The notes under the pieces are model-generated. The model searched no databases, had not been told where the DNA came from, and saw nothing but the letters and a program-made list of their open reading frames with translations. Shown here one piece after another: positions 9,971 through 54,867 of a stretch of DNA of 64,000 nt; within the stretch, counting starts at the first letter, position 1; each line of letters starts with the position of its first letter. The DNA is from Kribbella flavida DSM 17836. GTDB lineage: Bacteria; Actinomycetota; Actinomycetes; Propionibacteriales; Kribbellaceae. Location: positions 2,046,001 to 2,110,000 of the forward strand of contig NC_013729.1 of the NCBI RefSeq assembly GCF_000024345.1, given 5' to 3'. The position numbers and the translations under genes are program-made.

Positions 9971-10066
9971 ACCGCTCGGCTCCCACCTGGGCGGTCGTCC
10001 GTCGTCGAGCAACCGAACAGGCCGGCCACCCAGTAGTCATCGAGAACCGCCCGGTTGCCGATGACG

Positions 10067-10072
10067 AAGGAG
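10067..10072 (+). promoter_or_regulatory. Ribosome-binding site that sets the subtilase start
   Basis: AAGGAG lies 9 nt upstream of the ATG at 10082. Two upstream in-frame ATG codons (10055, 10061) precede or abut this site and have no Shine-Dalgarno of their own, so 10082 is preferred. It also yields a clean signal peptide. Confidence 0.65.
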
Positions 10073-10081
10073 TTCGCCCTG

Positions 10082-13435: not shown

Positions 13436-13442
13436 CAGCGGC

Positions 13443-13480
13443 CCGGCCCCTGCGGTGGCTCGCCCCACCGCAGGGGCCGG
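13443..13480. terminator. Strong bidirectional hairpin terminator
   Basis: A perfect 16-bp GC-rich stem (ccggcccctgcggtgg with its complement) and 6-nt loop lie 7 nt after the protease stop and just before the convergent CPBP gene stop. It can serve both strands. Confidence 0.75.
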
Positions 13481-13491
13481 TGCTGGAACAC

Positions 13492-14289: not shown

Positions 14290-14350
14290 CCGGAGGATTC
14301 TGACAGCGCAACGGGCCAGGTGCGGTCTGCTGCGGCGGTAGTTTGGCCGG

Positions 14351-29931: not shown

Positions 29932-30085
29932 TCGCCGGGCGCCGCCGAGCTCTGCGGCGGGGCGTTGGGTGGGTGTGGTTTTCCTGGTCAAGGCGTGGCC
30001 TGTTCGGCGCGACGCGGACTTTCTAGCGTTCTGGTCAGGCGCCCGGACCGAGGCGCCGGACCACAGACCAGGAAAGGACCTGACG

Positions 30086-30820
30086 ATGCCGAAGCTCGAA
30101 GGAAAGGTTGCCATCATCACCGGGGGTGCCCGCGGGATGGGCGCCGCGCACGCCCGGGGATTCGTTGCCGAGGGCGCCAAAGTGGTCATCGCCGACGTGC
30201 TCGAGGCCGAGGGCAAGCAGCTGGTCGAGGAGCTGGGTGAGAACGCGATCTTCGCACCTCTCGACGTCCGTGACCGGGACGGCTGGGACCGGGTGGTGCA
30301 GCAGGCGACCGGCACCTACGGACCGGTCACGGTGCTGGTGAACAACGCCGGCATCTTCCGGCGGGAGTCGATCGAGACGCACTCGCACGAGATGTGGGAC
30401 GAGGTGATCGGCGTCAACCTCACCGGCATCTGGAACGGCACCAAGGCCGTCATCCCGGGCATGAAGGCCGCCGGGACCGGCTCGATCATCAACGTGTCCT
30501 CCACCGCGGGCATCACCGGCTACGCCTACCTGCCGGCGTACTCGGCCTCCAAGTGGGCGATCCGCGGCCTGACCAAGACCACCGCCCTGGACCTCGGCAC
30601 CTTCGGTATCCGGGCGAACTCGGTGCATCCCGGCTTCGTCCGGACGCCGATGACCGAGGAGCTCGGCGACAACACCGCCAACGTGGCGCTGCACCGCACC
30701 GCCGCCGACACCGAGCTCACCCCGTTGGTGATCTTCCTCGCCAGCGACGACTCCGCCTTCGCCACCGGGGCCGAGTTCATCGCCGACGGCGGCGAGTCGG
30801 CGGGCATCCCGGTGCAGTGA
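30086..30820 (+). CDS. Short-chain dehydrogenase, hydroxysteroid-dehydrogenase-like
   Basis: A 244-residue classical SDR starting MPKLEGKVAIITGGARGMGA. The cofactor motif TGGARGMG, a following IADVL segment (an Asp favouring NAD), NNAGIF, catalytic S in INVSSTAGI and Y/K in YSASKWAIRG are all present. GARGMGAAHARGFVAEGAKV and the C-terminal FIADGGESAG resemble the 3-alpha/20-beta-hydroxysteroid dehydrogenases of actinomycetes. Steroid activity is not proven; many relatives act on other alcohols. An AAAGGACC ribosome-binding region precedes the ATG. Confidence 0.88.
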   Translation: MPKLEGKVAIITGGARGMGAAHARGFVAEGAKVVIADVLEAEGKQLVEELGENAIFAPLDVRDRDGWDRVVQQATGTYGPVTVLVNNAGIFRRESIETHSHEMWDEVIGVNLTGIWNGTKAVIPGMKAAGTGSIINVSSTAGITGYAYLPAYSASKWAIRGLTKTTALDLGTFGIRANSVHPGFVRTPMTEELGDNTANVALHRTAADTELTPLVIFLASDDSAFATGAEFIADGGESAGIPVQ

Positions 30821-30895: not shown

Positions 30896-31876
30896 TCAGC
30901 CAGTGGCGAGCCGGTCGAGCCGGGCCGTGATCGAGGCCGCGTCCGGAATGGACGGCATCGCGCCCCGCGCCTCCACCGCCAGCGACGCCGCCGCGTTGGC
31001 TCGAAGTACGGCCTCCGGCAACGGTGTGCCGGTGGCCAGGCCGGCGGCAAGGACGCCACAGAAGGTGTCACCTGCCGCGGTGGTGTCGATGGCATTCGCC
31101 TCCACCCCGCTGACTCGCACCGGGTCCGCGCCGCGGCGCAGCAGCAGGGCACCAGCTGGACCGAGGGTGACCACCACCGCAGGAACCTTCTCGAGCAAAG
31201 CGGTGCCAAATGGCGCGCCGGACGCGCTGCCACCGGCCTCTGCCGCGGCCACCACACCGGCCTCTGCCGCGGCCACCACAGCGGCCTCGTGCTCGTTGAC
31301 CACCAGCAGATCCACGTCCGCCAGCAGATCGGCGTCCAGCTCTGCCGCCGGTGCCGCGTTCAGCATCACGTACCGGCCCACCGCCGCGGCCGCGCGGACC
31401 GTCTCGAGAGGGATCTCCAGCTGGACCAGCAGGACTGCCGCCGAACTCGCCGCGCGCACGGCAGCCGAGTCCATCGTCAGCTCGTCGTTGGCGGACGGGG
31501 CGACCGTGATCGCGTTCTCCCCGGTGCGATCGACGGTGATGATCGCGGTCCCGGTCGGGGTGGACGACGTGCGCAGCAGTCCGAGGTCCACCCCGGCGTC
31601 GACCAGTGCGGACCGGACCAGCCTTCCACCGTCGTCGTCGCCGACGACGCCCACCAGGGCGGTCGCGACTCCGGCACGCGCCGCCGCCGCGGCCTGATTG
31701 GCGCCCTTTCCGCCAGGACCGCGGTCGATGCCGGAGGCAAGGACCGTCTCACCGGGGCGCGGCATCGCCTCGACCGACAGGCGCAGGTCGAGGTTGGCGC
31801 TGCCGACCACCACCACGGCCGGCGCGACGGGCGCGGCATCGCTCACCTGGGCCGAGGTCACGGCCTGGCCGGTCAT
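30896..31876 (-). CDS. rbsK: Ribokinase
   Basis: A 326-residue PfkB-family kinase of the ribokinase type. The N-terminal VVVVGSANLDLRLSVEAMPR and GGKGANQAAAAARAG motifs and the C-terminal AIDTTAAGDTFCGVLAAGL (anion hole and catalytic Asp) are those of RbsK. It would phosphorylate ribose or a related sugar. It is the last gene of the transporter operon, joined to the phosphodiesterase gene by an ATGA overlap. An Ala/Glu-rich loop around residues 200-220 contains a fresh 24-bp tandem duplication. Confidence 0.88.
   Translation of the reverse strand: MTGQAVTSAQVSDAAPVAPAVVVVGSANLDLRLSVEAMPRPGETVLASGIDRGPGGKGANQAAAAARAGVATALVGVVGDDDGGRLVRSALVDAGVDLGLLRTSSTPTGTAIITVDRTGENAITVAPSANDELTMDSAAVRAASSAAVLLVQLEIPLETVRAAAAVGRYVMLNAAPAAELDADLLADVDLLVVNEHEAAVVAAAEAGVVAAAEAGGSASGAPFGTALLEKVPAVVVTLGPAGALLLRRGADPVRVSGVEANAIDTTAAGDTFCGVLAAGLATGTPLPEAVLRANAAASLAVEARGAMPSIPDAASITARLDRLATG
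31231..31278. repeat. Perfect 24-bp tandem duplication inside rbsK
   Basis: Two identical 24-nt units (31231-31254 and 31255-31278) duplicate eight residues (VAAAEAGV-type) in the ribokinase. A third, degenerate partial copy follows. The frame is kept, so the kinase gains eight residues in a surface loop. Confidence 0.85.
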
Positions 31877-32646
31877 GCCGGACATCCTGCGGACAGCTGG
31901 TGGACCTGCGCCGGGACGTCGTCGATGACGATGGCGTCGACCTCGGCGGTGACCAGGTGCCGAGCCTGCTCGGCGGTCGGGCACCAGACGAGAAGTTCGC
32001 GGTCCGCGCCGTGCACCAGCGCGACGATGCGATCCAGCGACGGGACGTCCCGCGGCTCCGCTGCGGTCGTGGGCCACAGCGACCCGGCATGGACCGCCAG
32101 TACCTGGATGTCGAGATGTGCTGCCGCGGCAACGGCCTGGCCGATCGGGAAGTGCAGCCACGTCAGCAGGCCGAGCGGCACCCGCGGTGCGGCCTGCCGC
32201 AGCTGACGCAGTGCCGCCGGGTCGAAGGACTGTGCCAAGGTCGGACGCCGTCGCGTGGACTCCGTCGCGACAGTGCCCAGCAGCGCCGCGGTGGTGGAGT
32301 CGGCCGGCCTCCCGGCGTCCTCCAGCGACGACTTCACGTCGAACACCACACCGACTTCCGGCGGCAGCACGTCCAGCAGCCGGTGGACCGGCAGCGCGCC
32401 GTACCGTTCGGCCTGCGCTCCGGTCAGCTCGGCCAGGAACCTGCCGTCGGACAAGGCCGCGTCGTGGACCACGAAGAGCTCGTCGTCCAGCGTCCGGCGT
32501 ACGTCGACCTCGACCCAGCGGAGGCCGGCGTCGACGGCCCCCAGGAACGAGCCGGCAGTGTTTTCGCGGTGCCCTTGGACCACGCCCTTGCCCAACCCCC
32601 GGTGCCCGACCAATGTGGCCGGCCGGCTGAAGACCCGCGGGCTCAT
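31873..32646 (-). CDS. Glycerophosphodiester phosphodiesterase family protein
   Basis: A 257-residue TIM-barrel phosphodiesterase. The catalytic start GHRGLGKGVVQGHRENT contains the first His and Arg-Glu, and VEVDVRRTLDDELFVVHDA provides the metal-binding Glu-x-Asp and second catalytic His. There is no signal peptide, so it acts inside the cell on imported or internal glycerophosphodiesters. It overlaps both neighbours by 4 nt, so it is made with the ADP-ribosylglycohydrolase homologue and ribokinase. Confidence 0.88.
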   Translation of the reverse strand: MSPRVFSRPATLVGHRGLGKGVVQGHRENTAGSFLGAVDAGLRWVEVDVRRTLDDELFVVHDAALSDGRFLAELTGAQAERYGALPVHRLLDVLPPEVGVVFDVKSSLEDAGRPADSTTAALLGTVATESTRRRPTLAQSFDPAALRQLRQAAPRVPLGLLTWLHFPIGQAVAAAAHLDIQVLAVHAGSLWPTTAAEPRDVPSLDRIVALVHGADRELLVWCPTAEQARHLVTAEVDAIVIDDVPAQVHQLSAGCPA

Positions 32647-33953
32647 GAGCCGGTGGCGAGGAAGTCCCGTGCCAGCCGCACGGTACGGTCCGCGAGCTCG
32701 CCGATCGTGATCCGGTCGAAGTCCCGCACCGCACTTCTCACCTTGTCGTGGGTGGTGCCGACGAGCTCGGCCGGTACGCCGGCCGCTCCGTGCAGCGCGC
32801 CGTAGACGCTGCCGACGGTGGCCCCGTTGGAGTCGGTGTCGCGGCCCCCGGAGATGGTGATGCCGACGGCGTCCATGAAGGTGTCGCCCCAGGTGAGACC
32901 GACAGCGATGAGGGCGGCGTTGTTGACGGTGTGCACCCACGGCAGGTGTCCCCACTCGGCGTCCACCCAGTCGAGGGCGTCGGTGTGCGAGGCGCCGCGG
33001 CCGTGCAGTTCCCGGACTCCCCGCAGCGCGGCGGCGAGTCGGGACGACTTCGGCACCAGAGCCGCCGCCTGGGCCAAGGCGTCGGCCGCGGAGCGCGCCC
33101 CGAGTGCGGCAGCGACCAGACCGGCCGCCCACAGCTCTCCGTAGATGCCGTTCGCGGTGTGGGTCAGGCGCGCATCGGTCAGCGCCAGCCGCGCCGCCTC
33201 CCCGGGATCACCGGGGCTCACGTAGCCGAACGCGTCGCCGCGGATCAGGGCGCCGATCCATTCCCGGTAGGGATTGCGGTGGGTCGCCGTCCGCGGCGCG
33301 GTCAGGCCGTGGATCAGGTTGCGGTAGGCCGCCCGCTCCGCGGTGTACGTCTGGGTGAAGGGCACCCGGTCGAGCCACTCGGCCGCGATCTGCTCGGTGG
33401 TGACCGCGCGGCCGTACCGCTCGAGGACGTACAGCCCGAGGATCGTCCAGTCGATGTCGTCGTCGCGCGGTACGTCGACGAACCGCCCCGCCGACGCGGT
33501 CTCGGCGGACGGGTGCAGCTGGGAGACCCCCGCGGGCAGCGGATCGAGCAGCGGCAGGTAACCGGTCTGGGGCCAGTGCTCCGCGGCGCGCAGGTAGCGC
33601 TCCAGCTCGGTCCGGCTCAGCCCTTCGACCGGTTTGCCCAGCGTGTTGCCGACAGTGCGGCCCAGCCAAGCACCCCGGATGCGGTCCGGCAGTGTCGCGT
33701 CGTCGACGTCGACGCGTGGCGTCGTCGCCGCCAGCGCCAGCAGGGTCTCGTCGTCGTCGGGCTCGTCGAAGTTCCAGCCCGCCGAACGGTCGAGGCGACC
33801 GAGCTCGCCCTCGATTCGATCGAGTCGGGCGAGGTCGCCCTCCTGGGCTGCCTGCCGAGCCTGCGCTGCCAAGGAGTCGGCCGGATATCCGCTGTGCGCC
33901 AGCTGTTCGGCTTCGTCGGGGATGAGGTCGCGGGGGTCCAGTACGTCGTGCAC
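32643..33953 (-). CDS. ADP-ribosylglycohydrolase-fold protein
   Basis: A 436-residue protein of the ADP-ribosylglycohydrolase (ARH) superfamily. After an N-terminal extension of about 85 residues, the domain begins with RIRGAWLGRTVGNTLGKPVE. The metal-binding acidic sites are DDDIDWT (about residue 170) and the C-terminal GGRDTDSNGATVGSVYGALH. These residues bind two magnesium ions in studied ARH enzymes. Its place within a sugar ABC operon argues for hydrolysis of an imported N- or O-ribosyl compound rather than protein de-ADP-ribosylation; that is inference. It is 43 nt downstream of the permease pair. Confidence 0.85.
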   Translation of the reverse strand: MHDVLDPRDLIPDEAEQLAHSGYPADSLAAQARQAAQEGDLARLDRIEGELGRLDRSAGWNFDEPDDDETLLALAATTPRVDVDDATLPDRIRGAWLGRTVGNTLGKPVEGLSRTELERYLRAAEHWPQTGYLPLLDPLPAGVSQLHPSAETASAGRFVDVPRDDDIDWTILGLYVLERYGRAVTTEQIAAEWLDRVPFTQTYTAERAAYRNLIHGLTAPRTATHRNPYREWIGALIRGDAFGYVSPGDPGEAARLALTDARLTHTANGIYGELWAAGLVAAALGARSAADALAQAAALVPKSSRLAAALRGVRELHGRGASHTDALDWVDAEWGHLPWVHTVNNAALIAVGLTWGDTFMDAVGITISGGRDTDSNGATVGSVYGALHGAAGVPAELVGTTHDKVRSAVRDFDRITIGELADRTVRLARDFLATGS

Positions 33954-33996
33954 GGGGATTCCTCGGGTCAGGAGTCGGAAGGGGACAGAGCCGGGG

Positions 33997-34848
33997 TCAG
34001 CCCTTGACGGCTCCGGAGAGGAAGCCCTGGGTGACCTGTCGCTGCAGCGCGATGAACAGCACCATCACCGGCAGGATCGTGATCAGGGTGCCGGCTGCGA
34101 GCGGACCGATGTCGACCGAGCGCCCGCCGAGGAACAGGTAGAGGCCCGTCGTCAGCGGCCGGTACTGGCCACCCGGCAGGTACAGCAACGGCACCAGGAA
34201 GTTGTTCCAGTTCTGCAGGAACGTGAACACCGCGAGCGCTCCAGCGCCCGAACTCACCAGCGGCAGCATCACGCTGCGGAAGATCTGCCACTCCGAGGCC
34301 CCGTCGATCCGGGCCGCCTCCTCGATCTCGGTGGGCAGGTCGGTGAAAAACGCCCGGATGAAGAACGTGCCGAACGACAGGCCGGTACTGGCGAGCACCA
34401 GGTTCGCCCCGACCAGCGTGTTCAGCAGCCCCATGCCGCGCAGCTGGAAGTACAGCGGGATCATGTAGGTGAAGAACGGCACCAGCAGACCCAGGACGAC
34501 CAGGTAGAACGCGATCGACCGGCCGGGGAAGGGCAGCCGGGCGAACGCGTACCCGCCGAGCGTGGACAGGACGACGACCAGGACCGTGCTGGGCACGGAC
34601 AACAGGAAACTGTTCAGCACGTAGTCGCCGAACGAACCCACCGTCCAGGCCGTCACCAGGTTGTCCGCCGAGATCGAGGAGAACAGGCCGAACGGGTTCG
34701 ACCGGACGTCGTCGCCGGTCTTCAGCGCTGTCGAGACGACCAGGACGAGCGGAAAGAGCATCAGCAGCGACAGCAGCACCAGGACGAAGTGCCTGCCGCC
34801 GAGCAGTGCCTGTCGTGACGGTCTCAGGGTGGTACCGCTCGTACTCAT
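33997..34848 (-). CDS. Sugar ABC transporter permease, MalG type
   Basis: A 283-residue permease with six membrane helices and the cytoplasmic coupling motif EEAARIDGASEWQIFRSVML (EAA loop). The size and N-terminus fit the second permease of carbohydrate uptake systems. It starts with an ATGA overlap to the first permease. The operon encodes no ATPase; many actinobacterial sugar importers share a single MsiK-type ATPase encoded elsewhere. Confidence 0.93.
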   Translation of the reverse strand: MSTSGTTLRPSRQALLGGRHFVLVLLSLLMLFPLVLVVSTALKTGDDVRSNPFGLFSSISADNLVTAWTVGSFGDYVLNSFLLSVPSTVLVVVLSTLGGYAFARLPFPGRSIAFYLVVLGLLVPFFTYMIPLYFQLRGMGLLNTLVGANLVLASTGLSFGTFFIRAFFTDLPTEIEEAARIDGASEWQIFRSVMLPLVSSGAGALAVFTFLQNWNNFLVPLLYLPGGQYRPLTTGLYLFLGGRSVDIGPLAAGTLITILPVMVLFIALQRQVTQGFLSGAVKG

Positions 34849-35849
34849 GCGCCCATTCCTTGCAGTGAGAGCCGGCGCTGCAGCCGGTTGAGCCAGACGG
34901 CGAACGGAACGGCCAGCAGCGTCAGCACCAGGGCCAGCGCCGTGCCGTAGCTGATCCGGTTGAGCTGGAAGGCGTTGCCGTAGGCGTACGTGCCGAGCAC
35001 CTCGGTGGCGCCCGCCGGTCCGCCGCCGGTCATGATGAAGACGATGTCGAAGACGCTGAAACCGCCGACCAGAGTGATGGTGGTGACCATCAGGAACACC
35101 GGCATGATCTGGGGCAGGATCACGTACCGGAGCCGGCTCATCGGCCCGGCTCCGTCCAGCAGCGACGCGTCCACCAGTTCGGTGTCGACGTTGCGCAGTG
35201 CCGACAGCAGGATCACGAACACGAAGCCCGCGGTGGCCCACACGGCCGTGCCCAGGACGGCGTACAGGGCGGTGTCGGGGTTGCCCAGCCAGCCGGTGCC
35301 GAGTGAGCCCAGGCCGACCAGCTCGAGGCCGCGGTTCAGCCAGCCGCGGGTCGGGTCGTAGATCCAGCCCCAGACCACGCCGACCGCCACCTGCGGAAGG
35401 ATGTAGGGGAAGAAGAACGCGATCCGGTAGAAGAGGCTGCCGCGCGGGACCCCCCAGACCAGCAGCGCCAGTCCGAGGCCGATCACCAGCGGCGCGATCG
35501 TGCCGAGCACGATCCAGATCACGTTGTTCTTCAGGGCCGCCCAGACGCTGGGGTCCTTGAACAGCTCGACGAAGTTGTCCAGGCCGACGAAGGGCGGCTG
35601 GGGGTTGATCCCGTTGAAGTCGACGAACGCGTAGTAGAGCGCGTTGCCCAGCGGGAAGATCAGGAACACCACGACCATCGCCATCAGTGGCGCGACCAGG
35701 ACCAGGCCCAGCCGGGTCTGCGCCTTCCGGGTGACACTCGGGGTGGTCGACCGGATCTGCCGGGACCGCCGCGGCGGCTTCGGGGTGGTGCTCGGCGACG
35801 GAGCCGCCGGCGTGGCGGCCGGCGACGTGTCGACGACGGTCCGATTCAT
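34845..35849 (-). CDS. Sugar ABC transporter permease, MalF type
   Basis: A 334-residue permease with a Pro/Ser/Thr-rich cytoplasmic N-terminus of about 45 residues before the first of six helices. The EAA loop reads DASLLDGAGPMSRLRYVILP. It pairs with the downstream permease and the solute-binding protein encoded 13 nt upstream. The stop of this gene overlaps the start of the next. Confidence 0.93.
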   Translation of the reverse strand: MNRTVVDTSPAATPAAPSPSTTPKPPRRSRQIRSTTPSVTRKAQTRLGLVLVAPLMAMVVVFLIFPLGNALYYAFVDFNGINPQPPFVGLDNFVELFKDPSVWAALKNNVIWIVLGTIAPLVIGLGLALLVWGVPRGSLFYRIAFFFPYILPQVAVGVVWGWIYDPTRGWLNRGLELVGLGSLGTGWLGNPDTALYAVLGTAVWATAGFVFVILLSALRNVDTELVDASLLDGAGPMSRLRYVILPQIMPVFLMVTTITLVGGFSVFDIVFIMTGGGPAGATEVLGTYAYGNAFQLNRISYGTALALVLTLLAVPFAVWLNRLQRRLSLQGMGA

Positions 35850-35862
35850 CGGGCCCACACCG

Positions 35863-37143
35863 TCACTTCGTGAACGCGGCGTCGAGGTTCTTGGCAACCT
35901 GCTCCGCGCTCTGCTGGCCGGACAGCAGGCCCTGGACGCCGTCCCACATCGCCTTGTTGAACACGTCGGTCGTCAGGACGTCGATGTTGTAGCCGAGGTC
36001 GCCCTGGCCGGTCGCGAGCTTCGCGGTGTCCTGCAGGGTCTGGGTCAGCAGCGGGGAGAGCTTCAGCCCGTTGACGTCCACCGGCTGCGGCGGGATGACA
36101 CCGAGGTTCTGCACCAGCCAGCGCGCGTGCTCCGGCGACGCGAGGAAGTCCACGAGTTTCAGCGCGGCGTCCTTGTTCTGGGTGCCGACCGAGATGTAGG
36201 GCCCGGACCCCAGGCCGGCGGTGAAGATGCCCGGTCCGGACTGCGCCGGGAACGGGATGTAGCCCACCGCGAACTTCGCGTTGGCGTCCATCTCCCGGAT
36301 CAGCCAGCTGCCGTTGGGCAGCATCGCGGCCTTGCCGGAGTAGAACAGGGCGGTGGCGTTGTCGTAGCTGACCGAGGTGGGGAACTCCGGCAGGTAGCCC
36401 GACTTGCTGTAGTTCTCCCACAACTTGAGGGCCGACACCACCTCCGGCGAGTTCCAGGACTTCTCGCCCTTGAGCAGCGCGTCCATACCGTCGGAACCGA
36501 TCGCGCTGGACAGCGCCATGCTGAGCAGGTGGCCGCCCTGCCAGCCCTCCTTGTCGCTGGCCGCGATCGGGACGATCTTCTTGGCCTTCAGGGCCTCGGC
36601 TGCCGCGGTGAGCTCGGCCAGGGTGCGGGGCGGCTGGATCCCGTTCTTGGCGAACAGGTCCTTGTTGTAGAACAGGCCGATGGTCTCCATCTCACCGGGG
36701 ATGCCGTACGTCTTGCCGTCGACGGTGACGCGGTCCTTGGCGAACGGGTAGACCTTCCAGCCGCGCTCCTGGTAGGCGCTGGTCAGGTCGGACAGCAGAC
36801 CCGCCTTGGCCAGCGCCCCACCGAAGCCCGGTCCCGAGCCCCAGTTGAAGACGTCCGGCGCGTCGCCGGAGCGCAGCTGGGTCTGCAGAACGGTCCGCAT
36901 GTTGTCGTAGGGCATCGCCTCGAGCTTCACGTCGACACCCGAGGACTTCTCGAAGTCGGCGAGCCGTGTCTCGAGCTTCTTCAGCGCGTCGGCGTCCTCG
37001 GGCTGCTCGACCAGGAACCGCAACGGCTTGTTCTGCGGACCGGAATCGGAGGCGGTGGTTCCGCCGGTGCCGGTGCAGCCGGCCACCACAAGCGCCGACG
37101 TGGCGACAGCCAGCGCGGCCTGCAGTGCTGAACGGAGTTTCAT
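35863..37143 (-). CDS. Sugar-binding lipoprotein of the ABC importer
   Basis: A 426-residue extracellular solute-binding protein (family 1). The signal sequence ends in the lipobox VAGC (Cys at about residue 22), so it is a lipoprotein. The mature part begins after a Gly/Thr/Ser linker with LRFLVEQPEDADALKKLETR. It heads a six-gene operon: binding protein, two permeases, ARH homologue, phosphodiesterase and ribokinase. Its promoter region contains a copy of the 13-bp operator also found before the alpha-galactosidase gene. Confidence 0.93.
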   Translation of the reverse strand: MKLRSALQAALAVATSALVVAGCTGTGGTTASDSGPQNKPLRFLVEQPEDADALKKLETRLADFEKSSGVDVKLEAMPYDNMRTVLQTQLRSGDAPDVFNWGSGPGFGGALAKAGLLSDLTSAYQERGWKVYPFAKDRVTVDGKTYGIPGEMETIGLFYNKDLFAKNGIQPPRTLAELTAAAEALKAKKIVPIAASDKEGWQGGHLLSMALSSAIGSDGMDALLKGEKSWNSPEVVSALKLWENYSKSGYLPEFPTSVSYDNATALFYSGKAAMLPNGSWLIREMDANAKFAVGYIPFPAQSGPGIFTAGLGSGPYISVGTQNKDAALKLVDFLASPEHARWLVQNLGVIPPQPVDVNGLKLSPLLTQTLQDTAKLATGQGDLGYNIDVLTTDVFNKAMWDGVQGLLSGQQSAEQVAKNLDAAFTK

Positions 37144-37241
37144 GGCGGTTCCTCGTCTCGATGTGCGTCCGCGCCCGGACCGCAAGCCGGTGCTGCCCTG
37201 CCACCACGGGGCCCGAAAGGCCGATCAGAATGCTGATCTAG

Positions 37242-37268
37242 TTTCGCGATGAAAAGAAAACGTGTCAA
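37242..37268 (-). promoter_or_regulatory. Promoter and ROK-type operator of the importer operon
   Basis: On the minus strand, a consensus -35 TTGACA occupies 37268-37263. The palindrome TTTCGCGATGAAA (37242-37254 on the plus strand) covers the expected -10 zone. The outer arms match the site at 38528-38540 (TTTC-N2-GATGAAA), so both are probably bound by the adjacent ROK repressor. Confidence 0.6.
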
Positions 37269-38440
37269 GAGGGGTCGAGCAGTTCGGCCCCGCTGGTCTG
37301 CACGCCGCCGGCGAAGTCGCGCTGGATCGCGATCGTGGCGGCACCGCGGGCCCACTCCAGGAACCCCATCGAGCGGATCACCACCTCCGTGCTGGGGCCG
37401 CGTACCCCGGCGTACCGGTGCAGGCCCTCGTCCAGTGCCGTCCGGGCGACCTCGGCGAGATGCACGCCTTCGCCCGACAGGATGATCCGCTGGACGCCGG
37501 TCAGCGCGCTGACAGCGGCGGCGGCCTGGCCGAGGGCGCGAGCGGCCTCGTCGACGACCCGGCCGGCGACCGGGTCCCCGGCCACGGCCAGGTCGAGGGC
37601 CTCGTCGTACCCGACCTGTCGGCCGAGCCCGGCCGAGACGGCCGAGGTGATCGCCCCGGAGGTCAGGTAACCGGTCATGCAGCCGCGATGGCCGAGCGGG
37701 CACAGCGGTCCGTAGGGGTCGATCGGGAAGTGGCTGACCGGTGTCACCTCGGTCCGGATCATCGCGTTGTTGAGCACCAGTCCGTAGCCGATACCCGCCC
37801 CTACCGTCAGCAGGGCGAAATCGGCGTGCCCCCGGCCCACCCCGAACCAGTGCTGCGCCTGGGTGAGGCCCACGACGTCGTTGTCCAGGTGGACCGGCAG
37901 TCCGAGGCGTTCGGCCAGCAGGGCACGCAGCGGTACTTCGCGCCAGTGCATGAACGGCGAGTCGGCCACGATCTCGCCGGCGTCGACCAGACCGCCGACG
38001 GTGACCCCGACCGCGTCGATCGGGCGTCCGCCGCGGGACTGGAACCCGGCCACGATCTCGCCTACCGCCTCGACCACGTCCGGCACCTCCAGGGACCGGA
38101 TCGGCTGCACGAAGGTGTCCAGGATGCGCGCGCGCAGGTCGGTGACAACCGCGTAGATCGACTCGGTCGTGAGCTTGACCCCGATGAACCGGTGCTGCTG
38201 GGCCACCACGTCGAGCGGCATCGAGGCGCGGCCCCGGCCCGGCGTGCGGATCGGCTCGGTCTCGGCCAGCACGCCCGCCTCGAGCAGCGGCTTCACCAGG
38301 CGGGTCAGGGTGGCCGCCGACAGCCCCATGCTCTTGGCGAGCTGCAGGCGTGAGCGCGGGCCGTGAACCAGGATGTCGACCGCAACCGCCCTGGACAGCT
38401 CCGACAGCGGCGCGGCGCCGGACAGTTCGACGTCTTCCAT
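37265..38440 (-). CDS. ROK-family transcriptional repressor
   Basis: A 391-residue regulator: an N-terminal winged helix (about residues 15-70, with SRLQLAKSMGLSAATLTRLV) fused to a ROK sugar-kinase-like domain. The cysteine motif CPLGHRGCMTGYL corresponds to the ROK zinc site, and LDNDVVGLTQAQ to the active-site Asn-Asp. An upstream in-frame start at 38485 is possible; 38440 fits the family better. It sits between the two operons it probably controls. The presence of the sugar-binding residues suggests it senses the imported sugar or a product. Confidence 0.9.
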   Translation of the reverse strand: MEDVELSGAAPLSELSRAVAVDILVHGPRSRLQLAKSMGLSAATLTRLVKPLLEAGVLAETEPIRTPGRGRASMPLDVVAQQHRFIGVKLTTESIYAVVTDLRARILDTFVQPIRSLEVPDVVEAVGEIVAGFQSRGGRPIDAVGVTVGGLVDAGEIVADSPFMHWREVPLRALLAERLGLPVHLDNDVVGLTQAQHWFGVGRGHADFALLTVGAGIGYGLVLNNAMIRTEVTPVSHFPIDPYGPLCPLGHRGCMTGYLTSGAITSAVSAGLGRQVGYDEALDLAVAGDPVAGRVVDEAARALGQAAAAVSALTGVQRIILSGEGVHLAEVARTALDEGLHRYAGVRGPSTEVVIRSMGFLEWARGAATIAIQRDFAGGVQTSGAELLDPS

Positions 38441-38527
38441 GTCCCGCCTCACGTCTGCACGGCCGGCCGCCGCAGCGGACGCCACTCACCCGACCTCCGA
38501 ATCCTGTGGCATGCTGAACCCTACACG

Positions 38528-38540
38528 TTTCATGATGAAA
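38528..38540. promoter_or_regulatory. ROK-type operator before the alpha-galactosidase and rok genes
   Basis: TTTCATGATGAAA is a palindrome with 6-nt arms around one central base, in the 124-nt divergent region. A TATTAA-like -10 for the alpha-galactosidase gene follows at 38542-38547. The same arms recur before the importer operon, giving a two-site regulon. Confidence 0.6.
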
Positions 38541-38564
38541 TTATTAATGACAGGATGGCAACGG

Positions 38565-40754
38565 ATGACTGATTCGACCGGCGCCGCGCCCGTGCGCCCG
38601 GTGGTGCTCGCGGCCGGGCGGGTCTCGGTGGTGGTCGACGTTTCCGCCGCCGTTCCCCGCGTCCTGCACTGGGGGCGTCGAGTGACCACCGCACCGGCTG
38701 ACGAAGCGTTCCTGGGGACGCTCGCGGAGCTGCAATCGGGTGCCGACGGTTTGCACGGTGCCGGCGCGCCGTCGATCCTGCCGGAGCAGTCCGGCGGCTG
38801 GATGGGACTGCCGGGTCTCGAAGGCCACCGCAACGGAACGACCTTCTCGAGCCGGTTCGGTCCGGCCGGTTGGGAGCTGACCGGCGCGCCCGGCGAGCAG
38901 CAGACGCTCGTCGCGCACGCGGTCGACCACGACGCGCGGTTGACTCTGACCACGACGATCGAGCTGCTGCCGTCGGGTCTCGTCCGCCTGCGCGCCGAGC
39001 TCGCGAACGCCGACGAGGACCGCCCGTACACCGTGGATGCCGTCCGGCTGGCCCTTCCGGTGCCGGCGGAGGCCGAGGAATTGCTCGACTTCACCGGGCG
39101 CCACCTCCGTGAGCGCGTTCCCCAGCGCCACCCGTTCACCGCCGGCACCCATGTTCGCGAAGGACGTCGCGGGCGGACCGGTTCGGACTCGAGCCTGGTC
39201 GTTGCCGCCGGCACCGCCTCGTTCGGCTTCAACCGCGGCGAGGTCTGGGCGGTGCACACCGCGTGGAGCGGCAACCACACCACCTTCGCGGAGCTGGGGC
39301 TGGCCGGCGTTCGCACGCTCGGTGGCGGGGAACTCCTGCTCCCGGGCGAGATCGTGCTCGCGCCTGGTGAGAAGTACACGACGCCCTGGGTGTACGGGGC
39401 GTACGGAGCCGGGCTGGACGAGGTCGCGGCCGCCTTCCACCAGACGCTGCGCAGCCGCCGCACCCATCCCTCGTCGCCGCGGCCGGTGGTGCTGAACACC
39501 TGGGAGGCCGTGTACTTCGACCACGACCTCGAGTCCCTGGTCGACTTGGCGCAGTACGGCGCGAAGGTGGGCGCCGAGCGGTTCGTCCTCGACGACGGAT
39601 GGTTCCGCCACCGCCGTCACGACCGCGCGGGCCTGGGCGACTGGCAGGTGGACCCCGAGGTCTGGCCCGACGGCCTCGCCCCGCTGATCGACGCGGTCCG
39701 CGGGCTCGGGATGGACTTCGGGCTCTGGTTCGAACCGGAGATGGTGAACGAGGACTCCGACCTGGCCCGGTCCCACCCCGACTGGATCCTGGCGCCCGGT
39801 GACCGGCTCCCGCTGCGCGGCCGGTACCAGCAAGTGCTGAACCTCACCGTGCCGGCGGCGTACGAGTACATCCTCGAGTCGATCAGCTCGCTGGTGTCCG
39901 AGCACCACATCGACTACCTGAAGTGGGACCACAACCGCGATCTGGCCGAAGCCGGCGACCGCGCCACCGGAGCACCGCGGGTGCACGCGCAGACGGCGGC
40001 GGTCTACCGGATGCTGGACGAGCTGCGCCGACGGCATCCCTGGCTGGAGATCGAGTCGTGCTCGTCGGGCGGCGGCCGGGTCGACCTCGGGATCCTGCAG
40101 CACACGGACCGCGTCTGGGCCAGCGACTGCATCGACGCGCTGGAGCGTCAGCAGATCCAGCGGTGGACCGGCCTGGTGCTGCCGCCGGAGCTGGTCGGGG
40201 CCCATGTCGGCGCCCCGACCGCACACACCACGCACCGCACCCACTCGCTGGCCTTCCGCGCGGCGACCGCCCTGTTCGGCCACTTCGGCATCGAGTGGGA
40301 CCTCCGGACCGCGACCGCGGCGGAGCTGGACGAGCTGGCCGCCTGGGTGAACCTCTACAAGTCCGAGCGTGGCCTGATCCACTCCGGCACCGCGGTGCAC
40401 AGCGACTATCCCGACGACGCCTACTGGGCGCACGGCTACGTCAGCCAGGCCCAGGACCGCGCGCTTTTCGCGTTCGTCGCCCTGTCGACCACCAACCAGG
40501 TTCGCCCCGGCCGGATCCGGATTCCCGGGCTGAAGCCCGAGACGTCGTACCGCGTCGAGCCGATCGAGCTGTCGGCTGCCGCGCTGGTCCCGACCGCCGC
40601 CGGCGCGCCGTCCTGGTGGACCGAGCCGGTCACGGTGACCGGGCACCTGCTGGCCGAGATCGGTCTGCAGGCACCCATGCTGTACCCCGAGCAGGCGCTG
40701 CTCTTCCGGCTCGTTGCCGTTGACAACAACCCGACCACCGAGAACAGGATCTAG
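38565..40754 (+). CDS. Alpha-galactosidase, glycoside hydrolase family 36
   Basis: A 729-residue GH36 enzyme. The beta-sandwich N-terminal domain (about 1-300) leads into the barrel with LNTWEAVYFDHD, VLDDGWF, nucleophile D455 in YLKWDHNRD, ESCSSGGGR, and acid/base D521 in WASDCIDALERQ. No signal peptide is present, so it acts on imported galactosides in the cytoplasm. The ATG at 38565 is chosen because the family sequence begins soon after and AGGATGG lies upstream. It heads a three-gene operon and is divergent from the ROK repressor. Confidence 0.94.
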   Translation: MTDSTGAAPVRPVVLAAGRVSVVVDVSAAVPRVLHWGRRVTTAPADEAFLGTLAELQSGADGLHGAGAPSILPEQSGGWMGLPGLEGHRNGTTFSSRFGPAGWELTGAPGEQQTLVAHAVDHDARLTLTTTIELLPSGLVRLRAELANADEDRPYTVDAVRLALPVPAEAEELLDFTGRHLRERVPQRHPFTAGTHVREGRRGRTGSDSSLVVAAGTASFGFNRGEVWAVHTAWSGNHTTFAELGLAGVRTLGGGELLLPGEIVLAPGEKYTTPWVYGAYGAGLDEVAAAFHQTLRSRRTHPSSPRPVVLNTWEAVYFDHDLESLVDLAQYGAKVGAERFVLDDGWFRHRRHDRAGLGDWQVDPEVWPDGLAPLIDAVRGLGMDFGLWFEPEMVNEDSDLARSHPDWILAPGDRLPLRGRYQQVLNLTVPAAYEYILESISSLVSEHHIDYLKWDHNRDLAEAGDRATGAPRVHAQTAAVYRMLDELRRRHPWLEIESCSSGGGRVDLGILQHTDRVWASDCIDALERQQIQRWTGLVLPPELVGAHVGAPTAHTTHRTHSLAFRAATALFGHFGIEWDLRTATAAELDELAAWVNLYKSERGLIHSGTAVHSDYPDDAYWAHGYVSQAQDRALFAFVALSTTNQVRPGRIRIPGLKPETSYRVEPIELSAAALVPTAAGAPSWWTEPVTVTGHLLAEIGLQAPMLYPEQALLFRLVAVDNNPTTENRI

Positions 40755-40757
40755 ACC

Positions 40758-41804
40758 GTGGGACGTCTCGTTCGCTTCACCTCACCCCGCACGGCCGAAG
40801 TCGTCGACTTCCCCGACCAGCCGGCCGGCGCCGGGGAAGTGCGCCTGCAGACCCTGTACTCCGGGATCTCGGCCGGCACCGAGCTCACGGCGTACCGGGG
40901 CAGCAACCCGTACCTCAACAGCGAGTGGGACGCCGAACGCCGGTTGTTCGTCCCCGGCGACTCCACTCACTCCTACCCCCTGGACGGCTGGGGGTACGAG
41001 GAGGTCGGCCGGGTCGAGTCCGTCGGAGACGACGTGGACCCTGACCTGGTCGGCCGCCTGGTCTGGGGCACCTGGGGACACCGCTCGTCCGTCGTACGGC
41101 CCGTGGGCTGGGTCCAGGAGCGTCTGCTGCCGGAGGGCTCCACGCCGATCGCCGGCATCTTCGCCAAGATCGGCGCCATCGCGCTGAATGCGATCCTGGA
41201 CGCCGACATCCACGTCGGCGAGACGGTCGCGGTGTTCGGTGCCGGCGTGCCGGGGCAAATCGTCGCGCAACTGGCCCGGCTGAACGGTGCCGAGGTGATC
41301 GTGGTGGACCCGGTGGCGGCGCGCCGTGAACTCGCCGAACGGCTCGGCGCCTCGCTGACGCTCGACCCGACGACCGACGAGGTGGCGGAGCGGGTCCGCG
41401 CGCTGACCGGCAACCGTGGCGCCGACGTCGTGATCGAGATGAGTGGCAGTTACCAGGCGCTGCAGGAGGCGGTCCGGACGGTCGCCTACAGCTCGCGGGT
41501 CGTGGCCGGCGGCTTCTTCCAGGGCGGTGCCACCGCGGTCCGGTTGGGGGAGGAGTACCACCACAACCGGGTCGCGATCATCTGCTCGCAGATCTCCGGC
41601 GTCGCTCCCGTGCTGCAGCACCGCTGGGACGAACTGCGGATGTCGAGAACCGTGCTCACGCTGGAACGCGACGGCCGGCTGCCGCTGCGGGACCTGATCA
41701 CCGACATCGTCGCCGCCGAAGACGCCCCGGCGGCCTTCGAGATGCTGGACAGCGCGCCGGAGAAGGCGCTGCAGGTCGTGCTCGACTACGGGCTCGACCG
41801 GTGA
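40758..41804 (+). CDS. Zinc-type alcohol dehydrogenase-like (MDR) protein
   Basis: A 348-residue medium-chain dehydrogenase. The Rossmann motif is VAVFGAGVPGQIVAQLARL, with an acidic IVVDP at the end of the next strand that favours NAD. The usual N-terminal catalytic cysteine and structural four-cysteine zinc loop are not evident, so it may be a zinc-free member similar to the BchC-like and sugar-derivative dehydrogenases. It follows the alpha-galactosidase gene by 3 nt and overlaps the next gene by 4 nt, so all three steps act together. Confidence 0.85.
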   Translation: MGRLVRFTSPRTAEVVDFPDQPAGAGEVRLQTLYSGISAGTELTAYRGSNPYLNSEWDAERRLFVPGDSTHSYPLDGWGYEEVGRVESVGDDVDPDLVGRLVWGTWGHRSSVVRPVGWVQERLLPEGSTPIAGIFAKIGAIALNAILDADIHVGETVAVFGAGVPGQIVAQLARLNGAEVIVVDPVAARRELAERLGASLTLDPTTDEVAERVRALTGNRGADVVIEMSGSYQALQEAVRTVAYSSRVVAGGFFQGGATAVRLGEEYHHNRVAIICSQISGVAPVLQHRWDELRMSRTVLTLERDGRLPLRDLITDIVAAEDAPAAFEMLDSAPEKALQVVLDYGLDR

Positions 41805-42817
41805 GCGTCGCGGTGGAGCCGTCGCCACGGTCGGACGGCAGCGTGCGCTGGGGCGTTCTGGCCACCGGCGGGATCGCCCGAGCCTTCACCCGCGACCTGC
41901 TGGCCCACGACCACCGGGTCACGGCCGTGGGCTCACGGTCGCTCGCGTCGGCCGAGTCGTTCGCGGCCGAGTTCGGGATCCCGCGCGCGCACGGCAGCTA
42001 CGAGGACCTGGTCGCGGATCCGGAGGTCGACGTCGTCTACATCGCCACGCCGCACAACTTCCACGCCGCGAACGCCGAGCTCGCCCTCGAGCACGGCAAG
42101 CACGTCCTGGTGGAGAAGGCGTTCACGCTCACCGGTGAGCAGGCGCAGCGCGTCACCGAGCTCGGCCGCGCGCGGGGACTTGTCGTCCTGGAGGCGATGT
42201 GGACCCGCTTCCTCCCGCACATGGCCCACGTCCACCGCCTGATCGACTCCGGCCGGCTGGGACAGGTGCGCTCGGTGCACGCCGACCACACCCAGCGCCT
42301 CCCGCAGGAGGACGAGCACCGGATCAACAACCTGCGGCTCGGCGGCGGGGCTCTGCTCGACCTCGGCATCTATCCGGTCTCGTTCGCCTGGGACATCCTG
42401 GGCCGGCCGGTCGATGTCCGGGCTCGCGCCGCGTTCCGGAGCTCCGGCGTGGACGCCTCGGTGGCAACCGTCTTCGAGCACGACGGCGGCGCCCTTTCCA
42501 CCACGTACTGCTCCAGCGAGACCCGCGGGCGGAACACCGCGACCATTCTCGGGACCGAGGGGCGGATCGAGATCGCGGACACCTGGTACGCCCCGGCGCC
42601 GGTCACCCTGCTGGACAACGACGGCAAGGTGCTCGACCGGTACGACGAGCCGGTGAGCGGTCGCGGCATGCAGTTCCAGGCTGCCGAGCTGGAGCGCCTC
42701 GTCACCGCCGGCGACACCGCCGGGAGCCCGTTGCTGCGTCCTGAGGAGTCGGTGGGAATCATGCGGACCATGGACGAGATCCGCAGCCAGATCGGCCTTC
42801 GTTACCCCGACGAGTGA
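41801..42817 (+). CDS. Gfo/Idh/MocA-family oxidoreductase
   Basis: A 338-residue NAD(P)-dependent oxidoreductase. The N-terminal Rossmann domain starts WGVLATGGIARAFTRDL, the catalytic EKAF motif (in KHVLVEKAFT) and the C-terminal GGGALLDLGIYPVSFAWDIL segment are those of the family. It is last in the alpha-galactosidase operon, starting with GTG inside the stop of the dehydrogenase gene. Together with the MDR protein it probably oxidises and isomerises a sugar or polyol released by the galactosidase. Exact substrate unknown. Confidence 0.9.
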   Translation: MSVAVEPSPRSDGSVRWGVLATGGIARAFTRDLLAHDHRVTAVGSRSLASAESFAAEFGIPRAHGSYEDLVADPEVDVVYIATPHNFHAANAELALEHGKHVLVEKAFTLTGEQAQRVTELGRARGLVVLEAMWTRFLPHMAHVHRLIDSGRLGQVRSVHADHTQRLPQEDEHRINNLRLGGGALLDLGIYPVSFAWDILGRPVDVRARAAFRSSGVDASVATVFEHDGGALSTTYCSSETRGRNTATILGTEGRIEIADTWYAPAPVTLLDNDGKVLDRYDEPVSGRGMQFQAAELERLVTAGDTAGSPLLRPEESVGIMRTMDEIRSQIGLRYPDE

Positions 42818-42913: not shown

Positions 42914-44155
42914 TCAGTCGTCGATCGCCTGGTAGACCGTGGTCCAGAAGTCGTGCACGAGCCTGGCCGGGTCCGGGACCGACATGCCGACCTGGGCGAG
43001 CAGGATGCCGGTCAGCTGGTTGTCCGGGTCGCCGTACGTCGTGGTGCCGCTGCCGCCGTCCCAGCCGAACTGGCCGATCGGCGCGTAGTCGCCGCGGTAG
43101 GTGCGGACGGCCATGCCCAGGCCCCAGCCGCCGTGCTGGCCCTGGCCGAAGGACACGTGCACGTTGTTGGTGGCGGTGGCGTTGCGGGCGGCGTTCTGCT
43201 CGGGGGTGAGGCGGTTGGTGGTCATCAGTTCGACAGCTGCCCGGGACAGGATCCGCTGGTTCCCGTGCATCCCGTTGTTCAGCAGCATCCGGAAGTAGGC
43301 GTGGTAGTCGTCGACGGTGGAGACCAGGCCCCCGCCGCCACCCTGGAACGCCGGCGGCGCGCTGTGCCGACCGCCTTCGGCCTCGTCCCAGACGTGGAAC
43401 TCGCCGGTCTGCGGGTCGGGTGCGTACAGGGGCGGCAACCGGTGCATCCGGTCGGCGGGCACGTGGAAGCCGGTGTCCTTCATCCCCAGTGGGTCGAAGA
43501 TGCGTTCCCGCAGGAAGCTCTCGAACGACTGACCCGTCACCCTGGCGACGAGCACGCCGAGCAGGTCGTTGCTGATGTGGTACTGCCAGCGCTCGCCGGG
43601 CTGGTTCATCAGCGGCAGCGCGCCGAGGCGGCGCATCCACTCGTCCGGCTCGGGCATCGGCTCCGGCAGGTTGGGCGTGAGTCCCTGCTCGAAGATCGCG
43701 CCCATGATCGGCGTACCGAGGGCAGTCAGGTCCATGCCGAGCCCGAAGGTCGAGGTCAGCACGTCCCGGACGGTGATCGGCCGGCGCGCCGGGACGGTGT
43801 CGTCCAGCGGGCCGTCGATCCGTTGCAGGACCTGCCGGTCGGCGAGCTCGGGCAACCACTGCTCGACCAGGTCGTCGAGCCGCAGCCGGCACTCGTCCAG
43901 CAGCACCATCGCCGCGGCCATGCTGACCGGCTTCGAGGTCGAGGCCATCCGGAAGATCGTGTCCCGGCTCATCGGGGCGCCGCCGTCGTGGCGCAGGGTG
44001 CCGACCGCCTCGACGTACGTCTCACCGCCCCGGCTGACCAGAGCGACCAGTCCGGGGATCTTGCCGGACTCGACGTGCCGGGCCAGCAGGTCGCTGATTC
44101 TGCGCTGGCCTGCGGCGGAGATGCCGCTGTGCTGGTCGGTGCGGGTGCTGGACAT
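42914..44155 (-). CDS. Beta-lactamase-family serine hydrolase (class C fold)
   Basis: A 413-residue serine hydrolase of the esterase/penicillin-binding type. The nucleophile motif STSK is in FRMASTSKPVSMA, preceded by the family's usual acceptor loop, with a YHISNDL motif in the position of YxN. There is no signal peptide, which suggests a cytoplasmic esterase such as the EstB group rather than a beta-lactamase. It lies 59 nt downstream of the DUF4097 gene, in the same operon. Confidence 0.88.
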   Translation of the reverse strand: MSSTRTDQHSGISAAGQRRISDLLARHVESGKIPGLVALVSRGGETYVEAVGTLRHDGGAPMSRDTIFRMASTSKPVSMAAAMVLLDECRLRLDDLVEQWLPELADRQVLQRIDGPLDDTVPARRPITVRDVLTSTFGLGMDLTALGTPIMGAIFEQGLTPNLPEPMPEPDEWMRRLGALPLMNQPGERWQYHISNDLLGVLVARVTGQSFESFLRERIFDPLGMKDTGFHVPADRMHRLPPLYAPDPQTGEFHVWDEAEGGRHSAPPAFQGGGGGLVSTVDDYHAYFRMLLNNGMHGNQRILSRAAVELMTTNRLTPEQNAARNATATNNVHVSFGQGQHGGWGLGMAVRTYRGDYAPIGQFGWDGGSGTTTYGDPDNQLTGILLAQVGMSVPDPARLVHDFWTTVYQAIDD

Positions 44156-48800: not shown

Positions 48801-49136
48801 CGGGCCCAGGATGCCGATGTGCAGCCGGCCGTCGGCGCCGATCAGTGTGGGGGAGGACCGTGACGCACCCGCAGCGGCCCGGAGCAGCTTGGCATCGCCG
48901 CGACCCAGGCCGAGGGCCGTGGCGAGCGCCTGGACCGAGTCCGCCTTCGGGCTTCGGGTTCTGCCTTGTTCGAGGTCGCGGATCGCGCCGGCGCTGAGGC
49001 CGGCCCGGTCGGCAAGCGCGCGCTGAGTGATGCCCGCCTGCCGGCGAAAAGCTCGCAGCAACTCACCGAAGCGGCCGGTCCGGACATGACCAGCGCCGGA
49101 TGGGGCCTCCTGCGACCTGCCGGGCACGGGCAGCAT
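45882..49136 (-). CDS. AfsR/SARP-type regulator with extra XRE domain
   Basis: A 1084-residue multidomain regulator. In order: an XRE helix-turn-helix (about residues 22-80, RRQAGITQRALADRAGLSAG), a winged-helix OmpR-like DNA-binding domain (about 105-195), a bacterial transcriptional activation domain (about 200-345), an NB-ARC ATPase with Walker A GIAGVGKTA (about 385) and Walker B-like RVLVLLDNAQ, and a C-terminal TPR array (about 730-1060). Standard AfsR/SARP proteins lack the leading XRE domain. Such proteins activate secondary-metabolite genes, but no biosynthetic cluster is present here. The start at 49136 adds 18 residues before the XRE domain and is the only convenient start codon. 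Confidence 0.92.
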   Translation of the reverse strand: MLPVPGRSQEAPSGAGHVRTGRFGELLRAFRRQAGITQRALADRAGLSAGAIRDLEQGRTRSPKADSVQALATALGLGRGDAKLLRAAAGASRSSPTLIGADGRLHIGILGPLEVRHGTVPVLVSSDLQRTLLARLALGAGTTVSLDELIDLLWPRTAPSNAVSLLQTRVARLRRLLEPRHPAYPVIVSSGNGYRLEASSDTLDLLAFRDLTAKAAVDEPEAAVTKLADAVGLWRGDTDVEAVATNPLYVALSNEYAAAVRALAALAREIGEPELALNPLLGLAARHELDEPLHVELIRTLAACDRQAEALAAYERIRSALAEQLGVQPSKRLRAVQQQVLRQHSEPSWEPVVVQQTPSAPPDFVGREDELTTICTALARPDAVSSRVVLINGIAGVGKTALALVAAHRLRAQYPDGQLYADLRGNATLLPEPIQVLGRFLRALGVPGRRIGTDETEAAALLRSELADRRVLVLLDNAQDAAQIQALLPGAGRSDAIVTSRRRLPGLDTAGVVDLEPLTRPEAIQLIAATARTHRLDADTEGATALAEACARLPLALRIAGARLATRPEWTVSDLARRLDDGNRRLTELSIGESSVLNSFQLSYADLSLEAQRAFRLCGLHPGDDFSADSTGILLGISAADADRVLEDLLEANMLMQYANNRYRFHDLLGLYSHRLLAEDAEAEAARARLLAWYTEAVTAAMDRVYPQLVRLATHPEPARFFRTDADAVDWLDDELPALLAVVRESASSGDHTVAWQIVDQLRGYFLVRRDLDGWVPAAQAGFAAAAATGDDVARTAMLISRGQALWSVGEDEAALADCLAGEALATSIGWTTAAAYLAHHVGWHHLEGGRLADAVAYMKRALALTEEDPRGHVRAVAFNGLGMTRLYQGELQESAELFGSALQINEAAGREASVLVNRGNLASAWRQLGQVERAAELLGEVLEAYQQRSHPRGELSTLDELARLYSQEGNGVAALQTALRAYDLATHIRDRKAQAQTAATVAEAQLRVGDPHAAIEWSETCLSIARGAYPYFETQALLALASARRSTGAAASAADATEQAASIARACGFALLEREATGHRPPQ

Positions 49137-54856: not shown

Positions 54857-54867
54857 TGACTTTCCTT

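Follow-up and report, generated by a model that had tools for sequence, protein, structure and literature searches.

What does a sugar-type importer carry into the cell when its operon also encodes an ADP-ribosylglycohydrolase (ARH) homologue, a glycerophosphodiester phosphodiesterase (GDPD)-family protein and a ribokinase? The question is raised by ten genes at positions 30896–42817 of a 64000 nt stretch (the window) of the genome of Kribbella flavida DSM 17836 (NC_013729.1, positions 2046001–2110000). One operon encodes a ROK-family regulator, a binding lipoprotein, two permeases, the ARH, the GDPD and the ribokinase, and the divergent operon encodes a GH36 alpha-galactosidase, an MDR oxidoreductase without catalytic zinc ligands and a Gfo/Idh/MocA oxidoreductase (GFO). 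These ten genes form one regulon. We tentatively propose, with what we judge to be just short of an even chance, that it serves the ROK-controlled uptake and dismantling of a fragment with alpha-galactosyl, ribofuranosyl and sometimes phosphodiester parts, perhaps derived from teichoic-acid-like polymers.

Two operons share a palindrome

The initial annotation had placed the ARH homologue, GDPD and ribokinase in the importer operon and the GH36 galactosidase with two oxidoreductases in the divergent one, and the coordinates, strands and Pfam families of all ten genes agree with this. The best Pfam match of each protein lies above the curated cut-off: PfkB, GDPD, ADP_ribosyl_GH, BPD_transp_1 (twice), SBP_bac_8/SBP_bac_1, ROK, Melibiase together with the GH36 N- and C-domains, ADH_zinc_N and GFO_IDH_MocA. 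The layout is operon-like, with 4 nt overlaps between the two permease genes, between ARH and GDPD, between GDPD and ribokinase, and between MDR and GFO. Judged by eye, the binding protein has a lipobox and no signal sequence was seen at the N-termini of the ARH, GDPD, ribokinase and GH36 proteins; no ABC ATPase gene is present among the ten.

The control regions between the GH36 and ROK genes and between the ROK and binding-protein genes both contain a 21 bp palindrome, ATAATTTC-N5-GAAATTAT, which bears out the earlier view of the locus as a regulon. The motif was derived from this and related loci, for which ranking by a matrix trained without the tested genus is the fair test, and in stretches of 13–21 kb per locus the two sites ranked first and second in all nine GH36-bearing clusters, with 18–35 bits as against at most 7.3 bits for the next site. 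The best site elsewhere in the 64 kb window scored 8.9 bits. The core pattern TTTCN5GAAA has seven sites in the 7.58 Mb genome, two of them in the cluster, compared with five for a backwards-read control pattern, and shuffles of the window gave 0.04. In three relatives two exact sites also lie inside the cluster, out of 13 (G024), seven (G020) and 27 (G513) in total; in G543 none of the six does, and the two cluster sites, each one core base off, were found by the matrix. Brachybacterium (L080) has its genes in another order, and there the top-scoring site (17.1 bits) is approximately 100 nt before the MDR gene, with a weak second one (7.4 bits) before the binding-protein gene. Nothing above 12.9 bits was found in the Arthrobacter-type, nucleoside-hydrolase-type, orphan and truncated loci scanned or in L146. 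No further regulon members were seen in the genome, the other five TTTCN5GAAA sites having different centres. The ROK protein would be the factor that binds this putative operator.

The cluster recurs in other genera

Scanning a collection of 84980 species with an alignment of the ARH gave 37 loci, 36 of them with a usable ARH (L110, which has a 30-residue ARH fragment, was dropped), i.e. eight complete copies of the cluster, three copies cut by contig ends, three of Arthrobacter type, 18 of nucleoside-hydrolase type and four without such neighbours. Genes were called and neighbours labelled with our own script and BLAST against window and reference proteins, with Pfam run on selected proteins. 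With the window and G020 (L037) added there are ten complete copies, spread over several families of actinobacteria: three Kribbella, a Blastococcus metagenome-assembled genome (MAG), Haloactinopolyspora, two Nonomuraea, Brachybacterium, a Nocardioidaceae MAG and an Actinomycetota MAG. All ten contain the ROK, binding-protein, permease, ARH, MDR and GFO genes (the GFO of L037 being cut by the stretch end), the ARH by selection, as the copies were found through it; GH36 is present in nine. A GDPD follows the ARH in five (the window, L074, L037, L077 and L082) and in the cut copy L089, and a ribokinase is present in four, after the GDPD in the window and L074 and after the GFO in L081 and L082. 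At the contig edge of L081, after the ribokinase, lies the start of a galactokinase gene. Searching from permease 2 instead (E 1e-75) gave hits in five of 394 class genomes, and at four of these five loci an ARH belongs to the cluster, one of them (L114 in G722) having an ARH of 45% identity on the opposite strand. The initial annotation had made its reading depend on the ARH and phosphodiesterase genes being conserved with the cluster: the ARH is, and the GDPD is in half of the copies. As the gene order recurs in other genera and an operator-like palindrome is common to both operons, the gene set is more than a chance grouping.

A GH36 galactosidase beside a sugar ABC importer is typical of alpha-galactoside use, and the GDPD and ribokinase are missing from some copies, both as expected if this were an ordinary raffinose, melibiose or galactinol regulon in which ARH, GDPD and ribokinase are passengers or housekeeping genes. 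We consider this unlikely, since the ARH is present in every complete copy and also in Arthrobacter copies without GH36, the ARH, GDPD and ribokinase genes overlap by 4 nt, and the ARH and GDPD trees concur on the branching L082,(L077,L089).

An ARH with an altered loop

PF03747 and the fold place the cluster ARH in the ARH/DraG superfamily. Its structure is predicted with confidence (pLDDT 93.8) as an ARH3/DraG fold, matching ARH family structures at Z 27–32 (ARH3, 6g1p, at Z 31.9 with an rmsd of 2.8 over 303 residues), and it carries an N-terminal helical extension of approximately 85 aa, the first 82 residues of the protein lying almost wholly outside the structure matches. The metal-site aspartates of ARH/DraG proteins lie in TDD and DxD[TS] motifs at both ends of the protein, and here D164–D166, D372, D374 and S375 are invariant in all 33 alignment rows, Asp replacing the Thr of TDD. 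The GNG-x-x-MR loop of DraG has a role tied to ADP-ribosyl hydrolases in the strict sense; the cluster ARH lacks it, as GNGAAMR of DraG aligns with EWIGALIR (E231–R238), of which at least I233–R238 is invariant in the same 33 rows. The substrate may be a ribofuranoside and is probably not ADP-ribose. Regulatory de-ADP-ribosylation is disfavoured by this loop replacement and by the catabolic neighbours.

Among the 38 genomes of the family sample, all of the genus Kribbella, the closest ARH, in G024, is 88% identical. In the ARH tree the complete and cut cluster copies, the three Arthrobacter proteins and one orphan form a single group of 17 rows (support 99/97). An inosine-uridine nucleoside hydrolase gene comes after that of the ARH relative (58–67% identity) in 18 of the 36 loci; ARH and nucleoside hydrolase families both act on ribosides. 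Of these 18, 11 have a ribokinase and 11 a conserved secreted-looking protein. Pfam checks covered a single nucleoside hydrolase of this type (L088) and two of the secreted proteins, which gave a carbohydrate-binding match just under cut-off in L091 and none in L095. These clusters of LacI-type regulator, ARH, nucleoside hydrolase and ABC importer (L088, L090–L099, L101–L104, L106, L107 and L109) occur in Microbacteriaceae, Streptomyces and others. At L113 (11511–13528) two extra ARH-like genes lie side by side, divergent from an operon with LacI-like regulator, ARH, ABC importer and ribokinase-type kinase.

The five ARH genes of the K. flavida genome fall into four groups, three with a PfkB gene within 1 kb, a linkage reached in none of 200000 random placements, so that chance adjacency of ARH and kinase was rejected. 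The second ARH locus of this genome (L049, G000:C1:4907000-4926900, 4675–15498) has two ARH genes, a ribokinase-type kinase, an ABC sugar importer, a LacI-like regulator, a 663 aa protein with an FGE-sulfatase domain and, by eye, a CoA-transferase-like gene, and similar ARH–kinase pairs occur in many Kribbella loci. Another locus (L052, G000:C1:6680000-6699900, 5850–10596) carries in a row a cytosine/purine-type permease, an isochorismatase-like protein, a GntR-like protein, an ARH with the usual motifs and a PfkB kinase, in outline resembling E. coli yegTUV.

Kinase, galactosidase, importer and oxidoreductases

Ribose is contacted in E. coli RbsK by N, D, G, K, N, E and D. All seven residues and the catalytic Asp are kept in the cluster kinase when aligned with E. 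coli ribokinase (1gqt), and the protein scores below the NCBIfam ribokinase cut-off (TIGR02152, 243.3 as against 299.65 bits). The full set of ribose-site residues is found in 34 of 38 kinases from ARH loci, including that of the window, as against none of the 11 unlinked PfkB proteins of the genome, with L160 short of a single residue; many of these linked kinases are near-copies from Kribbella and count as kin, not as independent cases. The incomplete linked kinases are that of L052 and those of L019, L023 and L024, which are only gapped at the first position. L092 (split frame) and a PfkB fragment at G000 443505 were left out of these counts.

The galactosidase has the GH36 domains, and its KWD and SD stretches, which belong to the active site, align with those of AgaB. 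By sequence, the best PDB match of the binding protein is a chitin-oligosaccharide binding protein. In the MDR protein the Cys and His that serve as catalytic zinc ligands are replaced; elsewhere, homologues of this protein are found beside sugar importers and an isomerase-like TIM barrel. For the GFO protein the best PDB match is dimeric dihydrodiol dehydrogenase (2o48). Both oxidoreductases give weak matches of inositol-dehydrogenase type, the one observation bearing on an inositol route via galactinol or glycerophosphoinositol.

The GDPD belongs to a surface-polymer-linked subfamily

Members of the GDPD family share HR, ENT, E-x-D and HD residues. The cluster protein matches PF03009 and keeps the active-site residues, with Asp at position 103 where some paralogues of the same genome have Glu; the E of ENT is replaced in the GDPDs of L082 and L089. 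It falls short of the cut-off for glycerophosphodiester phosphodiesterase in the strict sense (NF006989, 33.3 as against 264 bits), and the remaining seven GDPDs of this genome, which score 126–164 bits with Pfam compared with 59.5 bits for the cluster protein, are distant from it in the tree. A single-protein search (E 1e-20, six candidates scored per genome) had found it in three of 391 order genomes and made it appear a Kribbella-only gene, which was overturned by a profile of the six cluster GDPDs: with this profile, 34 of 374 class genomes have members of the subfamily, this genome and 33 others.

Among 15 of these 33 relative loci, mostly the best-scoring, surface-polymer biosynthesis genes lie within six places of the GDPD in 12: a TagH-like exporter ATPase is found in eight of the 15, an LCP ligase in nine, a glycerol-1-phosphate-dehydrogenase-like protein in five and a CDP-glycerol glycerophosphotransferase-like protein, encoded directly upstream or one gene off, in five. 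In eight of the 15 the GDPD gene has an overlapping neighbour of IspD type. Overlaps of this subfamily in surface-polymer loci (L181–L195) are with genes for either IspD-type cytidylyltransferases or CDP-glycerol-transferase-like proteins. The six cluster GDPDs are monophyletic (100/99) and nested inside the polymer-linked subfamily (95/94), and since they are monophyletic and branch as the ARH proteins do, L082,(L077,L089), a single gain is probable, after which the gene would have been passed on together with the cluster, apart from losses or a transfer.

The GDPD might instead open an imported sugar phosphodiester, as AccF and XanP do for opine-like compounds, with GH36 and ARH finishing the products. 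This has published precedents of importer plus phosphodiesterase (PMC7356202, PMC4526662 and PMC12807533), but half of the copies have no GDPD and most of its nearest relatives are found in loci for polymer biosynthesis, and we regard it as quite improbable.

A proposed function and the evidence that bears on it

Returning to the uptake of a galactosyl- and ribofuranosyl-containing fragment, the binding protein and permeases would import a small glycan fragment, from which GH36 would take off an alpha-galactosyl unit in the cytoplasm. The ARH-family enzyme may then hydrolyse a ribofuranoside, the ribokinase producing ribose 5-phosphate, and one of the sugars set free may be oxidised or epimerised by the zinc-less MDR and GFO enzymes. 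Strains with the GDPD of the polymer-linked subfamily, this one among them, could in addition cleave a phosphodiester of a sugar or polyol. The ROK protein would repress both operons via ATAATTTC-N5-GAAATTAT as long as inducer is absent. The imported fragments would probably come from phospho-glycan polymers of soil bacteria, whether teichoic-acid-like or not, teichoic-acid-like ones fitting best because of the GDPD ancestry, which is what suggests that the cluster perhaps serves teichoic acid catabolism. A more specific proposal is a dedicated salvage of teichoic-acid-like phospho-glycans, in which the ARH would be a metal-dependent ribofuranosidase acting on a glycan and feeding the ribokinase, a GDPD derived from polymer machinery would open the backbone and GH36 would remove side-chain galactose; we think this somewhat unlikely.

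The initial annotation had the importer take up a compound with galactosyl, glycerophosphoryl and/or ribosyl units. The shared operator, the ARH of all ten complete copies, the ribose site, the GH36 alignment, the galactokinase start of L081 and the GDPD subfamily speak for such a substrate. Several observations weigh against it or against our proposal. The GDPD is present in only five and the ribokinase in four of the ten complete copies, three Arthrobacter copies have no GH36, and L146 (in G038) has the binding protein, permeases, MDR and an isomerase-like gene, but within the 20 kb examined there it has no gene for an ARH, a GH36 enzyme or a GDPD. Kribbella genomes also carry ARH genes of the same subfamily without these neighbours (L075, L100 and L105). 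No glycerol- or ribitol-specific gene was recognized among the ten cluster genes, so that 'glycerophosphoryl' goes back to the GDPD family name. The polymer link is weak or absent in three of the 15 GDPD-relative loci, where we found an IspD-type cytidylyltransferase only, possibly an isoprenoid enzyme (L183), a nucleotidyltransferase only (L185) or neither (L186). The exporter of the polymer loci matches galactan as well as teichoic-acid exporters and the IspD-type protein of L190 scores below both the IspD and the ribitol-phosphate cytidylyltransferase cut-offs, which makes 'teichoic-acid-like' a reading of these loci. In addition, NAD-related genes follow the ARH in two copies: Haloactinopolyspora (L078, 11437–13401) has the NAD synthetase NadE, and L080 (11570–14597) has three genes there, one phosphoribosyltransferase-like, one for NAMPT and one more.

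These NAD genes, the ARH family membership, the sister clusters with nucleoside hydrolase and ribokinase, and a nucleoside hydrolase two genes downstream of the ARH in L079 would suit a salvage of NAD, ADP-ribose or nucleosides, in which the ARH strips ribosyl or ADP-ribosyl from imported nucleoside-like compounds, but this is very improbable given the invariant replacement of the DraG loop, the poor fit of GH36, MDR and GFO with nucleosides, and the occurrence of NAD genes in only two of the ten copies, after gaps of approximately 150 and 280 nt.

Features of the locus and its surroundings

The cluster is bounded by converging neighbours, a short-chain dehydrogenase gene (29969–30820) and a gene for a beta-lactamase-family hydrolase (42914–44155). 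Further along the window lie a gene for a regulator of 1084 aa with HTH, BTAD, NB-ARC and TPR domains (45882–49136) and an ABC-3-type (metal) transporter permease gene amid those for secreted-looking proteins (53577–61328), two of which were tested and gave no Pfam match.

Table 1 Genes and putative operators of the cluster (window positions)
Feature	Position	Strand	Remarks
PfkB kinase, ribokinase type	30896–31876	-	Alternative start 31885; PF00294 E 9.6e-51; TIGR02152 243.3 bits
GDPD-family phosphodiesterase, surface-polymer-linked subfamily	31873–32646	-	PF03009 E 2.3e-16; alignment; tree
ARH-family protein, DDD/EWIGALIR subfamily	32643–33953	-	PF03747 E 1.6e-43; model; structure matches
Sugar-type ABC permease 2	33997–34848	-	PF00528
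Sugar-type ABC permease 1	34845–35849	-	PF00528
Sugar-type solute-binding lipoprotein	35863–37143	-	PF13416/PF01547
Putative operator 2, between ROK and binding-protein genes	37238–37258		28.6 bits; kept in relatives
ROK-family transcriptional regulator	37265–38440	-	Alternative start 38485; PF00480 E 1.5e-32
Putative operator 1, between ROK and GH36 genes	38524–38544		32.1 bits
GH36 alpha-galactosidase	38565–40754	+	PF02065 E 2.9e-123; AgaB/AgaA best PDB matches
MDR oxidoreductase without catalytic zinc ligands	40758–41804	+	PF00107 only; alignment
Gfo/Idh/MocA oxidoreductase, dihydrodiol-dehydrogenase-like	41801–42817	+	Alternative start 41843; PF22725/PF01408; 2o48 best PDB match

Comparison with known systems

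No paper describing this gene set was found in the open-licence literature. Raffinose and melibiose regulons combine GH36, a sugar ABC importer and a sugar regulator, to which the Kribbella cluster adds ARH, GDPD, ribokinase, MDR and GFO. In the 18 nucleoside-hydrolase clusters, too, an ARH of this subfamily lies beside a sugar-type ABC importer, and 11 of them also have a ribokinase; however, their importer is just approximately 30% identical, a nucleoside hydrolase stands in place of GH36 and GDPD, and the regulator is mostly of LacI type.

For the phosphodiesterase, published work describes GlpQ as a GDPD-family hydrolase of wall teichoic acid (PMC7086022) and AccF and XanP as acting on agrocinopine D and xanthosan respectively, in systems that pair an importer with a phosphodiesterase for sugar phosphodiesters (PMC7356202, PMC4526662 and PMC12807533). 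At the level of the family, the cluster GDPD resembles GlpQ, and by proposed analogy it may share a teichoic-acid phosphodiester target, but by eye it has no signal sequence. To the agrocinopine (AccA/AccF) and xanthosan (XanT/XanP) systems, compared by description only, the likeness lies in importer plus phosphodiesterase. If the proposal is true, the regulon ties a surface-polymer GDPD subfamily to a nutrient importer and would offer soil actinobacteria a way of feeding on other bacteria's walls.

The E. coli yegTUV genes encode a transporter of MFS type, the ARH-like YegU and the PfkB-like YegV, under the repressor YegW/GgaR, and the paper on them assigns none of the three genes a clear function (PMC10819704). 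Transporter, ARH-family protein and PfkB-family kinase stand in one operon there as they do in Kribbella; in the printed sequences, however, YegU has TDDT and TNGAAMR and YegV lacks GGKGxN, and the E. coli stretch read contains no GH36, GDPD, MDR or GFO. For ARH genes next to sugar kinases, as they occur here, in yegTUV and in many relatives, no role is known, and the regulon offers a testable one, riboside hydrolysis in carbon catabolism. Set against these systems, a sugar-uptake regulon is of a known kind, and the gene combination, the ARH subfamily and the ancestry of the GDPD seem new.

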